DNA from: an uncultured Pelagibacteraceae bacterium | GTDB taxonomy: Bacteria; Pseudomonadota; Alphaproteobacteria; Pelagibacterales; AG-422-B15 | Assembly: GCA_902544065.1 (NCBI GenBank) | Contig: CACCAS010000003.1 | Span: 130,492-194,491 of the forward strand | Length of the DNA stretch: 64,000 nt | Direction of reading: 5' to 3' | Shown: piece after piece, positions 32,346 through 50,893 of the stretch | How the letters are laid out: every line of letters starts with the position of its first letter | Position numbering within the stretch: position 1 is the first letter of the stretch | Position numbers and translations under genes: made by a program | Notes under the pieces: generated by a model | The model's database searches: none | The model's input: only the letters and a program-made list of their open reading frames with translations | Told to the model about the DNA's origin: nothing

Positions 32346-32392
32346 AACGAGGTAATTTGTTGATTATTTTAATAAATAATTTTTTTTATAAA

Positions 32393-32845
32393 ATGGCATT
32401 GTTTCTATCTACTTATATTAATCGCATAGACAAGAAAGGTCGCGTTTCAGTACCTTCATCATTCAGAAGTGTACTTGAACAAAATGGCCTTAAGGGAATG
32501 ATTTGTTACCCTTCACCAACCCTTCAATCAATTGAAGGCTGTGCAATTAATCGAATGCAAAAAATAAGTGATGCGATCGAGTCTGCTGGACCTTTTAGTG
32601 AAGAAAGAAATACTTTTTCATCTTCTATATTTGCAGACAGTCATCAAATTCATTTTGATCAAGAAGGTAGAGTAATAATACCTGGTGAATTAATTTTATC
32701 AGCAGGAATTATTGATCAAGTTTCATTTGTAGGTATGGGTGAAACATTTCAGATGTGGAACCCGACTACGTACGAAGACTATAAAAAAGATAAATCAAAT
32801 AGTGCGAAAAATAATTTAGCAAATCTCAAATGGAGTAATCAATAA
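32393..32845 (+). CDS. mraZ: Transcriptional regulator MraZ
   Basis: MraZ is an AbrB-fold, ring-forming DNA-binding protein that represses the dcw operon. 150 residues from ATG 32393 (MALFLSTYINRIDKKGRVSV). The two SpoVT/AbrB-like halves each carry the D-x-x-G-R-V signature: IDKKGRVSVPSSFR and FDQEGRVIIPGELI. Upstream in-frame codons (from TTG 32357) are rejected because family members begin at MALF-like sequences. Five TGGGN boxes at 32301-32345 are its expected targets. ftsZ, not rsmH, follows. Confidence 0.95.
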   Translation: MALFLSTYINRIDKKGRVSVPSSFRSVLEQNGLKGMICYPSPTLQSIEGCAINRMQKISDAIESAGPFSEERNTFSSSIFADSHQIHFDQEGRVIIPGELILSAGIIDQVSFVGMGETFQMWNPTTYEDYKKDKSNSAKNNLANLKWSNQ

Positions 32846-32870: not shown

Positions 32871-34334
32871 ATGGTTTTAAATTTAAGCGTTCCAGAACTA
32901 AAAGAACTTAAGCCTAAGATAACTGTGTTTGGAGTCGGAGGTGCAGGCGGCAATGCGATCAACAACATGATTGAAGCAGGTTTATCAGGTGTTGAGTTTG
33001 TGGCAGCCAATACTGATGCACAGGCCCTTTCTAAATCATTAAGTGACTCTAAGATGCAACTAGGTGTTCAAGTAACAAAAGGTCTTGGCGCGGGATCACA
33101 TCCTGATATTGGAAAGTCTTCAGCTGATGAAACTAAGCATGAAATCATGGAACGTTTAGAGGGAACTAATATGCTTTTCATCACGGCTGGTATGGGTGGA
33201 GGCACTGGTACAGGAGCTGCACCAGTAATTGCACGGGTAGCAAAAGAATTGGGTATTCTCACTGTTGCAGTTGTTACAAAACCATTTCAATTTGAAGGAG
33301 CTGGAAGAATGCGTATCGCTGAGCAAGGCCTCAAAGAATTAGAGCATTTAGTAGATACGACAATTGTAATACCTAACCAAAACTTATTTAAAGTCGCTGA
33401 TGAAAAAACAACTTTTGCAGATGCTTTTTCAATGGCGGATGATGTTTTACATGCAGGGGTAAGAAGTATTACAGATTTAATGGTTGTTCCTGGACTTATA
33501 AATTTAGATTTTGCAGATGTAAAAACAATCATGAATAACATGGGGCGGGCCATGATGGGAACAGGAGAAGCTTCTGGTGAAAATAGAGCTATTGAATGTG
33601 CCCATAATGCCGTAACGAACCCATTACTTGATGACTATTCACTTGATGGAGCTAAAGGACTTCTCATTAATATAACTGGTGGGACTGACCTTACTCTTCA
33701 TGAAGTGGACAAAATTACAAACGAGATTCGAGAACAGGTTCATCCTGATGCAGATGTAATTGTGGGATCAATTTTTGACGACAAACTTGAAGGCAAGGCA
33801 AGAGTTTCTGTTGTAGCCACAGGATTAGACTCACATCCAAAACCAACTAAATCAATTGTAGATTTACAAATAACAAGAAATTCTGCTGTATCATCAATGG
33901 CGGCTACACCATCAGCAAATTCAAACTCAGTACAAGCTTCGTTAAGCAATGAAGAGATGAATGAAGAAGTAAATGAAAATTCTGATCCATATATGTTCAT
34001 GGATGGAGAGGATTCAGATATTCACTCTGAAACTGATATTGAAGATACGCAAATTGTCACAGAACCAGAAATCGCAGCTGAAGAAGAAGTTGAGCCAGAG
34101 CCAATCACTGAACCAGAGATGGTTACTGAGGATGAAGCTCCTAATAGCTTAATGGATTTAATAAATGCTAATAGAGAAAATAATGAGTCAGATGCACCTG
34201 ATCTTTTTAGTGGTCAAAACATTCATCAATTAGACGACATAAATGATACTAAAGATGAAGAAATAGCTGAAGAAAGTGAAACTGATCAGGATTTATTAGA
34301 AATTCCTTCATTCCTTAGAAGACAGAGTAAATGA
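32871..34334 (+). CDS. ftsZ: Cell division GTPase FtsZ, displaced to second position of the dcw cluster
   Basis: Tubulin homologue that forms the Z-ring. 487 residues. The GTP-binding core is complete: [22 protein letters not shown], the tubulin signature [10 protein letters not shown] at 109-118, and the catalytic T7 loop NLDFADVK near residue 206. After about residue 325 comes a long, acidic, disordered linker and a conserved C-terminal peptide [13 protein letters not shown], the docking site for FtsA and other partners. In most proteobacteria ftsZ follows ftsA; here it lies between mraZ and rsmH, 25 nt after mraZ and overlapping rsmH by 4 nt. No second ftsZ lies in the window. Confidence 0.98.
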
Positions 34335-35254
34335 CGAGTAAAGAATTGGCTCACAAGCCAGTTCTTATAAATGAGATAATAAAGTTAACCGGGCCTAAAG
34401 ATAATGAAACGTACTTCGATGCAACATTTGGAAATGGAGGATACTCGAAAGAATTTCTTGAGCTCACTAACTGCAATATTATTGCAATTGACAGGGATCC
34501 ACTTGCTAATCAAATTGCTAAAGAATTTAAAAAAAAATATGGCAAGAGGTTCGATTTTTTCCATTCTAAATTTAGTAAAATTAATGAAGTTATGGAAAAA
34601 ACCGAGGAAAAAGAAATTGACGGTTTCGTATTTGATATAGGAGTTTCATCAATGCAATTAGATTTTCCAGAAAGAGGTTTTTCTTTTATGAAAGAAGGTC
34701 CATTAGACATGCGAATGGGTCAGGAAGGAACAACTGCGTATGATGTGGTGAATTCAAAAAGTCATGAAGAATTAGCTGATATCATTTATTATTATGGTGA
34801 TGAAAGAAACTCCAGGAGAATTGCCCGAGAAATTGAAACTTATCGTAAATCAAAAAAAATTGAAACAACTTTAGAACTAGCAGAAGTTATCAAAAAATGT
34901 TTCCCAAATAAATATTATAAAAAACATCCTGCTACTAAAACTTTTCAGGCTTTAAGAATTTATGTAAATAACGAATTAGAAGAACTACATTCTGGTCTTA
35001 ATCACGCATTAAAATATTTAAAAAAAAATGGAAATTTATGTGTTGTTACTTTCCATTCGCTTGAGGATAGACTTGTGAAAAATTTTTTAAAAATAGCAAG
35101 TCAAAATGATAAGATAAATAAAGTTCTCAAACCTAGTAAAGATGAGATGGAATATAATTCACGATCAAGATCAGCCAAGCTAAGGTTTTATGAGAAAAAT
35201 AATCTAGAGTTTGGTTATGTACCTATTGAAAATTTGGGATTTAAACAATCATGA
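34331..35254 (+). CDS. rsmH: 16S rRNA (cytosine-1402-N4)-methyltransferase RsmH (MraW)
   Basis: Methylates C1402 of 16S rRNA in the decoding centre. 307 residues. Seen: [12 protein letters not shown] at the N-terminus, motif I-like [45 protein letters not shown] with PLDMRM, and [14 protein letters not shown] near the C-terminus. Overlaps ftsZ and ftsL by 4 nt each (ATGA), so it is translationally coupled. Confidence 0.97.
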
Positions 35255-47078: not shown

Positions 47079-47986
47079 GTATATATAATAAAGTTATGTT
47101 GCTTTATGGAGGCGTATCGGCAGAAAGAGAAATAAGTATCATAACTTCCAAAGAAATATCTAGGGCGCTAGTAAGATTAGGCTATGAGGTAATTGAAATT
47201 GATGCAGACTTAGATCTTTCAGAACACATCTCTGAACATAAGCCCGATGTAATATTTAACGGTTTACATGGCACATGGGGAGAAGACGGAGAAGTTCAAA
47301 AAATTCTTGAATTAAATAATGTACCCTATACGCATTCAGGAATTGAATCTTCTCAATTAGCAATGGACAAATATAAGTCTGCAGAAATATTTATTAAAAA
47401 TAATTTTAATTACCCAATAACTAATCTGGTGAGTATCAATAATATTAATGAACACTCATTTCCTGAGTATCCGTTTGTAATAAAGCCAAGAAACGAAGGC
47501 TCCAGCGTAGGCGTTGGATTAATCAGGAATCAAGAAGGAAAAAAAAGATATTTAATGGATAACGCAGATAGAAATGAAGTTCTGGTTCAGGAGTTTATAG
47601 ATGGCCAAGAAATTAATGTTGCTGTAATTGGAAATGAAAAGACTGGCTCAATAGAGATTGATCCAAAAAACGAATTCTATGACTATGAGTCAAAGTATTT
47701 TGATAACGGCAAGACTAAGCATATAATCCCACCAAGAATCAATAAAAAACAACTGGAAGAGGTAGAAGACCTAGCTTTAAAGGCGCATAAAATTCTTGGA
47801 TGTAAAGGAATTTCAAGAACAGAGTTTATTTTGGAAAAAAATACCAATCGGTTTTACATTCTTGAACTCAATACTCAGCCAGGAATGACACCGACTTCGT
47901 TAGTGCCAGAAATAGCAAAATACAAAGGGACAGAATTTGATGAACTCATTAATTGGATTTTAGAGGATGCAGGAACAAACCGTTAA
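47075..47986 (+). CDS. ddl: D-alanine--D-alanine ligase
   Basis: ATP-grasp ligase making D-Ala-D-Ala for MurF. 303 residues, DdlB size. Seen: MLLYGGVSAEREISIITSK, FNGLHGTWGEDGEVQKIL, PFVIKPRNEGSSVGVG, LVQEFIDGQEINVAV, GCKGISRTEFIL and the C-terminal ELNTQPGMTPTSLVPE. The coding end overlaps ftsQ by 20 nt, the longest overlap in the cluster. Confidence 0.97.
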   Translation: MSIYNKVMLLYGGVSAEREISIITSKEISRALVRLGYEVIEIDADLDLSEHISEHKPDVIFNGLHGTWGEDGEVQKILELNNVPYTHSGIESSQLAMDKYKSAEIFIKNNFNYPITNLVSINNINEHSFPEYPFVIKPRNEGSSVGVGLIRNQEGKKRYLMDNADRNEVLVQEFIDGQEINVAVIGNEKTGSIEIDPKNEFYDYESKYFDNGKTKHIIPPRINKKQLEEVEDLALKAHKILGCKGISRTEFILEKNTNRFYILELNTQPGMTPTSLVPEIAKYKGTEFDELINWILEDAGTNR

Positions 47987-48704
47987 ATATATAAATATTA
48001 TATGTTCGATACTAATTATATTTCTTTTACTGATTTTAGTAACGATATATTACTTTCCAAACTTAGTATCTAAATATTTTATTTTAAATCAGATAACTAT
48101 TAATGGTTCAGAAAAATCAAATATAAATATAATTAAAGAAGAAATATATAATCATTCCTCTGATTTATTATCTTTAGAATTAAAAAAAATTAAAGAAATT
48201 CTTGAGCAAGAACAATGGATAAAGAGAGTAAATGCAAAGAAAGTTTATCCATCCACATTAGTATTAGACATTATTGAAAATGATCCATATGCAATTTTAA
48301 GAGACAAAGGTAAATATTATCTAGTTGATATTGATGGAACAATTATTACTGAAAAAAATAAAGATTATAAAATTGAAAATTTTATTATTATTTCAGGGAA
48401 TGAGTCCCCGCCAGCTCTTAAAGGTATTATAAAAGAGCTGAATATTCATTTTTCTGAACTGATTTCACAACTAAATAAATTAGATTTTATAGAGAAAAGA
48501 AGATGGAATATAACTTTAAAAAATAATTTATTAATTAAATTACCCGATAAAAAAATAGACACTGCGCTTAAAAATTTAAAGGACCTGTTTGTTAATGAAA
48601 AAGTCTTGCAGAGCAATATAATTGAAATTGACTTAAGAATTGAGGGCAGGGCATCGTTGAAGGTAGATGAAGGAAAGATTAATTATGGTATAAATGATAT
48701 CTAA
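47967..48704 (+). CDS. ftsQ: Cell division protein FtsQ
   Basis: Bitopic divisome scaffold, 245 residues: short cytoplasmic tail, one membrane helix (IICSILIIFLLLILVTIYYF, about residues 11-30), a POTRA-like domain (FILNQITINGSEKSNINIIK) and the FtsQ-type beta domain (EQEQWIKRVNAKKVYPSTLV, KYYLVDIDGTII). Identity is supported by position between ddl and ftsA and by the V-x-x-x-Y-P-x-x-L pattern. Primary sequence is otherwise divergent. It overlaps ftsA by 1 nt. Confidence 0.9.
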   Translation: MQEQTVKYINIICSILIIFLLLILVTIYYFPNLVSKYFILNQITINGSEKSNINIIKEEIYNHSSDLLSLELKKIKEILEQEQWIKRVNAKKVYPSTLVLDIIENDPYAILRDKGKYYLVDIDGTIITEKNKDYKIENFIIISGNESPPALKGIIKELNIHFSELISQLNKLDFIEKRRWNITLKNNLLIKLPDKKIDTALKNLKDLFVNEKVLQSNIIEIDLRIEGRASLKVDEGKINYGINDI

Positions 48705-49894
48705 TGTCTCAAAGAAATATTTTTAGCGCAATTGATATACGTTCCGATAAAATAATTTGTTTAATTGCGCAAGAGTTAGAAATTATTAATCGTGGTAAAA
48801 TTCTTCAATTAATTGGTATTGGTATTTCAAAACTACCAGTAAATTGTTCTAAACCTCTCTCTCTTCGGCATTCTGAAATTTGTGATTATATAAAAGTTGC
48901 AATTACCAAGGCTGAATATGAGGCAAATGTAAAAATATCAGATGTTTTTGTAAGTATTTCGGAAAACATGACATCAGAATATATTGATTTCAATATTGTG
49001 AAAAAAAACAATGTGATTGAGGAGGATAATATAAAAGATTTTTTTAAGTCAAAACTATTTACTAATTTATATACAAAATTAAAAGAGCCATTGCATTCTT
49101 TTCCAATAAGTTATCGTATTGATAACAGAAAAAGTGTATCAGACCCAATTGGAATGAAGGCCGATAACCTACTTACAAAATGGCATATAATATCAGTATC
49201 AAAAAATTATCTTGAAATAATATATAAGACATTCCTGGAGATGGAGCTAAATTTAAAACAGATAGTTTCTAGTAATTATTCAACAAGTTTAGCAGTGCTA
49301 AATGAAGAAGAGTCTGAACAAGGCGCAATAACTATTGAAGTGCAAAAAAATAAAACAGTTTTATCCTATACTTTTGATAGTCAATTGATTGGATTTGATA
49401 TTATAAGAATAGGAACATTACATTTCGCAAATGATATATCACAGGTAAAATCCCTTGCACTTGTGGAAGCTGAAAGCATTAGAAAAAAGATTGATTTTTT
49501 TGATAAAGATAAAAAGCAGAATAAAGAACTAGATAAATATTATGAAATTTATTTGGCTCGTGCTGAAGAGCTGGCAAAAATTATTTCGACGACAGTAATG
49601 AAATCAAGGTTTAATTCGCTAGTATCAAATTCAATTATACTTACAGGATACGGAGCAAAATCAATTATTATTCAAAAATTAATCAAAAATAAATTCATTA
49701 ATTCATCATTTAGATTGGGTTCAACTAGAAAAATAAATGGATCTAAGACTTATCTTGATAATCCGTCATTAACCTCAAGCTTCGGTTTACTTTCTTATGC
49801 AATAAACCACGATTTAGAAGGTGAAGTAAGCGATGTAAACTATCGAAAAAAATCAATATTATCAATAATTTATAAATTTTTCCAAAACTTATAA
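48704..49894 (+). CDS. ftsA: Divergent FtsA-like divisome actin homologue with degraded nucleotide-binding motifs
   Basis: FtsA anchors FtsZ to the membrane. 396 residues placed directly after ftsQ. The overall layout is FtsA-like: 1A/1C region (YIKVAITKAEYEANVKISDV, FVSISENMTSEY), ITCH-like IISVSKN, ANDISQ, AESIRKK, ILTGYGAKSI, SSFGLLSYA, and a C-terminal amphipathic helix KKSILSIIYKFFQNL for membrane binding. The phosphate-1 loop (usually D-I-G-T/S) is D11-I-R-S14, and the phosphate-2 loop (usually D-I-G-G-G-T) is replaced by IEVQKNKT at 211-218. ATP binding is therefore doubtful. ftsZ does not follow it. Confidence 0.85.
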   Translation: MSQRNIFSAIDIRSDKIICLIAQELEIINRGKILQLIGIGISKLPVNCSKPLSLRHSEICDYIKVAITKAEYEANVKISDVFVSISENMTSEYIDFNIVKKNNVIEEDNIKDFFKSKLFTNLYTKLKEPLHSFPISYRIDNRKSVSDPIGMKADNLLTKWHIISVSKNYLEIIYKTFLEMELNLKQIVSSNYSTSLAVLNEEESEQGAITIEVQKNKTVLSYTFDSQLIGFDIIRIGTLHFANDISQVKSLALVEAESIRKKIDFFDKDKKQNKELDKYYEIYLARAEELAKIISTTVMKSRFNSLVSNSIILTGYGAKSIIIQKLIKNKFINSSFRLGSTRKINGSKTYLDNPSLTSSFGLLSYAINHDLEGEVSDVNYRKKSILSIIYKFFQNL

Positions 49895-49963: not shown

Positions 49964-50893
49964 ATGCAAAAGACTCTCAAAAAATATTTTAAATTATCTG
50001 GCATCACTTTACACAGTGGTAAAATTAGCACTATAAAAGTCAATCCAGCGCCTGCAAATACAGGAATACTATTTAAACGAATCGACCTCAAGGCGCCTCA
50101 CATAGAGAGCCTATTGAAGGCAAAAATTGAAAATGTTGTACATTCTGAATTGTGTACAAAATTGTCAAATGAATATGGTCACTCTGTATCAACTATCGAG
50201 CACCTAATGTCTGCTTTTCATGGCTTAGGAATAGATAATGCAATTATTGAGATAGACAACGTAGAACTTCCTATTCTTGATGGCAGTTCCTTTGAATATG
50301 TTTCAGAAATAGAAAGAGTAGGTATTAAAAATTTACAGGCAAAAAGAAAGATTATTAACATAATTCAACCTATTATATTCAGAGATAACGATAGTTATAT
50401 TAGGGTTGCCCCAGCCAATAATATGTCAATAAACTATACAATTGTTTATGATCATAAATTAATTAAAAAGCAAAATTTTATTTTTGATTTAGACACATCA
50501 TACAATTATAAAAATGTTATCAGCAACAGTAGAACATTTGGTTTTAAGGATGAAGTAGAATCTCTTAGAGACAAAGGCCTCATAGCTGGCGGCTCTATTG
50601 AAAATGCCATTGTTCTTAATAATGATGGCATAATGAACCAATCAGTGCTGAGGCACGATGACGAGTTTGTGAGGCACAAGGTGCTAGACTTTATTGGCGA
50701 TATATACTTACTGGGACATAGGGTAAAAGGATCCTTTGAAATATTTAAAGGAGGTCACAGACTTACTCATGAAATTGTTAAGTCAATCCTGTCTGATAAA
50801 TCTAATTGGAAATATGATGATGATATATCTGATTTAGAAGAACTACCATTTTCATCATTAAAACGTAAAAAAGAGCTTTCAGCTTCATTATAA
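49964..50893 (+). CDS. lpxC: UDP-3-O-acyl-N-acetylglucosamine deacetylase LpxC
   Basis: Zinc enzyme for the committed step of lipid A synthesis, so the organism makes lipopolysaccharide. 309 residues. Seen: GITLHSGK, STIEH80LMSAFHGLG with the first zinc histidine, ELPILDGSS, the segment NSRTFGF, DDEFVRHKVLDFIGDIYLLG and GHRVKGSFEIFKGGH with the remaining zinc and catalytic residues. It starts 69 nt after ftsA, the place where ftsZ normally sits. Confidence 0.97.
   Translation: MQKTLKKYFKLSGITLHSGKISTIKVNPAPANTGILFKRIDLKAPHIESLLKAKIENVVHSELCTKLSNEYGHSVSTIEHLMSAFHGLGIDNAIIEIDNVELPILDGSSFEYVSEIERVGIKNLQAKRKIINIIQPIIFRDNDSYIRVAPANNMSINYTIVYDHKLIKKQNFIFDLDTSYNYKNVISNSRTFGFKDEVESLRDKGLIAGGSIENAIVLNNDGIMNQSVLRHDDEFVRHKVLDFIGDIYLLGHRVKGSFEIFKGGHRLTHEIVKSILSDKSNWKYDDDISDLEELPFSSLKRKKELSASL

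Follow-up and report, generated by a model that had tools for sequence, protein, structure and literature searches.

Research on cell division has yet to settle whether FtsA must bind and hydrolyze ATP to tether FtsZ and to signal to the septal machinery. The solved FtsAs differ in the loops that line the nucleotide pocket. E. coli FtsA, which we compared together with that of Vibrio maritimus (PDB 7q6d, 7q6f), has the phosphate-1 (P1) sequence EIGT and the glycine-rich phosphate-2 (P2) sequence DIGGGT. The T. maritima (1e4f, 1e4g, 4a2b) and S. aureus (3wqt, 3wqu) proteins have non-glycine P2 loops that end in threonine, NLGYNFT and DIGEDVT respectively, along with an adenosine-type motif. Nucleotide is presumably bound in 1e4g and in both S. 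aureus entries. The T. maritima structure 4A2B contains ATP-gamma-S (PMC7613929). Mutations have been tested in E. coli FtsA at five residues close to the metal site (E14, S84, A188, D210 and Y375), and the E14R substitution abolished function in vivo with 61% of ATPase activity kept (PMC10213515).

The FtsA homologue studied here lies in a stretch of 64,000 nucleotides (the window) from a genome of 1.26 Mb that belongs to the SAR11 order (Pelagibacterales), family f1, genus g1, whose named near relatives are 'Pelagibacteraceae' single cells and MAGs. The gene (48704..49894, + strand; 396 aa, P0001) sits in the dcw cluster between ftsQ (47967-48704) on its 5' side and lpxC (49964-50893) on its 3' side, an order present in the window and in 40 of 40 SAR11 loci compared. 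Its product shares with E. coli and V. maritimus FtsA full-length homology (phmmer E about 6e-13), the 1C domain, the Arg/Glu pair of subdomain 2B, an amphipathic tail and the position after ftsQ. The FtsA equivalog model TIGR01174 matched over model positions 2-371 with an E value of 3e-44 and 151.5 bits, which falls short of the curated cut-off, 175.85, and the 1C (SHS2) domain that replaces actin subdomain 1B was detected at residues 102-163 (49007..49192, +; 33 bits, PF02491 cut-off 25.4). The gene is an ortholog of FtsA; an earlier note made from the window's letters had called it an FtsA homologue. The dN/dS of 0.07-0.15 measured against seven congeners indicates that ftsA is under purifying selection, and the same letters recur without internal stops in 33 congeneric genomes, both of which make it extremely improbable that the gene is a decaying pseudogene or that errors of assembly or sequencing produced its letters. 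We also considered whether the genome carries another FtsA of canonical type and rejected the idea, as the extra match to the FtsA model that we inspected was MreB. A scan of viral contigs yielded no further usable homologues.

The C-terminal helix SILSIIYKFFQNL (49853..49891, +), which the same note had described as amphipathic, has a hydrophobic moment of 0.62, equal to that of the E. coli FtsA tail helix and reached by 0.14% of shuffled sequences. Residues R286 and E289 (49559..49570, +), corresponding to R300 and E303 in the FtsZ-binding subdomain 2B of E. coli FtsA, were invariant in all SAR11 sequences examined, including 33/33 members of genus g1 and 35/35 of genus g6. The FtsZ encoded in the window ends in the C-terminal tail EIPSFLRRQ. 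Searches for SepF and ZipA found neither, leaving FtsA as the only FtsZ anchor of a known type that we recognized, and the only recognizable one in the window genome.

The P1 and P2 loops are where the window protein departs from E. coli FtsA. The P1 motif reads D11-I-R13-S-D-K16 (48734..48751, +), with arginine in place of E. coli Gly16, and the P2 motif reads E212-V-Q-K-N-K-T218 (49337..49357, +), with E212 at the position of the catalytic D210 and glutamine in place of G212. The letters D-I-R-S and E-V-Q-K-N-K-T had been read correctly, and profile-profile alignment with an E. coli-led FtsA alignment placed both motifs opposite the canonical loops. Other pocket residues are kept in E. coli numbering: E14 as Asp, K19 as Lys, S84 as Ser, D210 as Asp or Glu, and G336 as Gly. 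An alignment of homologues, suggested earlier as a check on fixation, found D11, R13, K16, S86, D/E212, T218 and G315 each in 33/33 congeners and Q214 in 32/33, with the P2 glycine lost in all 33. The adenosine motif L313-T-G-Y-G-A-K-S320 (49640..49663, +) is retained, with the L, T, G, Y and G at the equivalents of E. coli 334-338 each present in 33/33.

The glycine-poor P2 loop had been taken as a sign of lost ATP binding, an argument that fails because T. maritima and S. aureus FtsA also do without a glycine-rich P2. Window FtsA resembles these two proteins in its threonine-terminated P2 and its adenosine-type motif, but they keep the P1 glycine and the first P2 glycine, where the window protein has Arg and Gln. 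A P2 of the non-glycine-rich type (DFGKDKT, DIGKNYT and similar) occurs in most SAR11 genera. Among 42 other alphaproteobacterial FtsAs, a set that includes many of the most diverged that we found, P1 has glycine in 41, serine in one and arginine in none. The P1 arginine is common to g1 and two more genera, g8 and g9, and these two retain the P2 glycine. Judged from these alignments, the unusual feature of the window protein is the P1 Gly-to-Arg change, not P2. Two other P1 alterations were observed along the way. An alphaproteobacterial FtsA from outside SAR11 (L147, family f72) has P1 DLSARR, with the glycine replaced by serine. A member of genus g7 in the same family as the window genome (L090; P1 QVGNNS, P2 DINYNKT) shows a different change, having kept the glycine and lost the P1 acid.

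To measure constraint on the pocket, the entropy of seventeen pocket sites (E. coli numbering) was compared with random site sets of the same protein. Across the 33 congeners the pocket sites had an entropy 0.19 times the mean for the protein (P 5e-5, to be read as a guide and not a strict probability since the test ignores shared ancestry), and the corresponding value in canonical alphaproteobacteria was 0.29, making the constraint in g1 as strong. The segments holding P1 and the adenosine motif ranked among the most conserved 3% of segments in the protein. Together with purifying selection on the gene, this pattern indicates that the g1 pocket has been altered but kept, and on sequence grounds it is remodelled and constrained rather than decayed. 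The proposal that the ATP site is lost is not supported for the window protein, given its retained acids, Lys, Ser and adenosine glycine and the high conservation of the pocket. An AlphaFold model of window FtsA built from five input sequences had a pLDDT of 37, too low for use.

A contrasting pattern was found in SAR11 genera g6 and g10. FtsAs of these genera (for example L083 and L086) share with the window the locus, the R300/E303 equivalents and an amphipathic tail, but have P1 sequences of the EIN or EIS type, and their pocket sites are unconstrained. Across 35 g6 sequences, pocket sites were 1.25 times as variable as the average site (P 0.036, a guide in the same sense). G16 is mostly Asn and the adenosine glycine G336 mostly Asn, Lys or Glu; the catalytic D210 is Lys in 16/35, with Glu, Gln or Asn in most of the others, and A188 is Lys in 33/35. 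The single g10 sequence shows similar changes, and profile alignment backs the g6 register through most of the protein. In g6 and g10 the pocket really has been dismantled, with the FtsZ-binding and membrane parts preserved: the R300/E303 pair is present in 35/35 g6 sequences, and g6 FtsZ retains the tail EIPAFLRKQ. A general relaxation of actin-family proteins was rejected as a cause, as MreB loops are canonical in the window genome and in four g6 genomes, the latter pointing to a pocket loss specific to FtsA. In a protein tree made by a quick method, in which the branch to g6 and g10 is long, two separate changes away from the P1 glycine were needed.

The variability of the same sites in g6 shows that the fold alone does not force their conservation, and the conservation in g1 suggests that selection still acts on the pocket, whether for a nucleotide, for some other ligand or for a structural lock. 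Of these, adenine nucleotide is favored as the ligand, given that the two acids on the metal side and the adenosine motif remain. Nucleotide-free FtsA fits g6 and g10 well, and is better supported there than in the window genus. For g1 itself, a pocket that no longer binds ATP, in an FtsA that only ties FtsZ to the membrane, is unlikely but still deserves some weight: both the P1 and the P2 glycine are lost in 33/33, the FtsZ-binding pair and membrane helix are kept, and the sister SAR11 lineage suggests that division tolerates a dismantled pocket, whereas the altered pocket is among the most conserved regions, D11, K16, S86, D/E212 and G315 are retained, and FtsA of T. maritima and of S. aureus normally has a glycine-poor P2. 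The static membrane anchor put forward in the earlier note is upheld in its membrane part, by the FtsZ-binding pair, the tail helix, the FtsZ tail and the lack of detected SepF or ZipA; its nucleotide-free part is not supported for g1, where the pocket is constrained.

Less probable again is a locked or repurposed cleft, in which Arg13 of P1 (subdomain 1A) would pair with the acid at 212 of P2 (subdomain 2A), or another ligand would be held, giving a closed, polymer-competent state that forms in the absence of ATP. Fixation of both the arginine and the D/E212 in 33/33 is compatible with such a lock, and a new structural role would agree with how strongly the altered residues are constrained, but the acid at 212 is ancestral, so that covariation cannot support the pairing, and the retained adenosine motif is left without explanation. 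We lean, at slightly better than even confidence, toward window FtsA being an FtsZ membrane tether with a remodelled pocket that most likely still binds adenine nucleotide. The C-terminal helix would insert in the membrane and subdomain 2B would hold the FtsZ tail peptide. The pocket, remodelled by an ancient P1 Gly-to-Arg change and a non-glycine P2 loop, remains under strong purifying selection; hydrolysis or exchange of the bound nucleotide is probably altered, and a possible role for Arg13 is contact with the phosphates or with the acid on the opposite side of the cleft. We counted in favor of a nucleotide-binding tether the fixed pocket residues, their low entropy, the high conservation of the P1 and adenosine segments, the glycine-poor P2 loops of solved FtsAs, the g8 and g9 proteins with P1 Arg and P2 Gly, the low dN/dS, the invariant R286/E289, the conserved FtsZ tail, the absence of SepF and ZipA and the variability of the same sites in g6. 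Counted against it were the absence of P1 Arg from the solved FtsAs compared and from the 42 other alphaproteobacterial FtsAs, and the loss of in vivo function in E. coli E14R, a charge change at the neighboring P1 residue (PMC10213515). Conservation of the pocket could also reflect a structural or locked state instead of a ligand.

A broader possibility, to which we give a little under even chances, is that FtsA in parts of SAR11 is a pseudo-actin, working without nucleotide in g6 and g10 and with an Arg-locked pocket in the family of the window genome. If true, division in one of Earth's most abundant bacterial groups would proceed with no ATP cycling by FtsA, and the ATP site would have been given up on two or more occasions. 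SAR11 offers a natural contrast within one order, comprising canonical P1, constrained Arg-P1 and erased pockets with FtsZ and membrane contacts kept in all, which makes the ATP question testable with recombinant proteins. An earlier description of the altered SAR11 FtsA was not found in a literature search that covered few subscription journals.

Automated FtsA models under-score or miss most SAR11 FtsAs. The TIGR01174 cut-off was passed by 9/147 genomes of the SAR11 order, so automated annotation is likely to overlook the protein. Several FtsAs of g3 and g6 (L071, L072, L074, L075, L085, L097-L099 and others) were missed by BLAST with window FtsA and recognized only by their position between ftsQ and lpxC. 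In whole-genome searches for FtsX (TIGR00439), weak partial matches fell in ORFs mostly of about 410 aa, possibly FtsX-like permeases of the LolC/E kind, and FtsEX may be absent from SAR11.

In a further difference from E. coli and V. maritimus, ftsZ does not adjoin ftsA in the window. It lies 14-15 kb upstream (32871..34334, +) between mraZ (32357-32845) and rsmH (34331-35254), so the separation reported in the earlier note is real. The order mraZ-ftsZ-rsmH was seen in every SAR11 genome with readable neighbors, including genera with an intact P1, and the FtsZ tails are similar; a genome of the same class from another family (G171) has the usual order ftsA-ftsZ-lpxC. The move of ftsZ thus extends across the order, also to SAR11 genera with intact P1, and has no relation to the loops; a link between the two was rejected. 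In three related genomes (G059, G020 and G066; L168-L170), the contig ends inside the variable ftsZ linker and the end of the gene apparently lies on another contig near ftsA, which is probably an assembly break.
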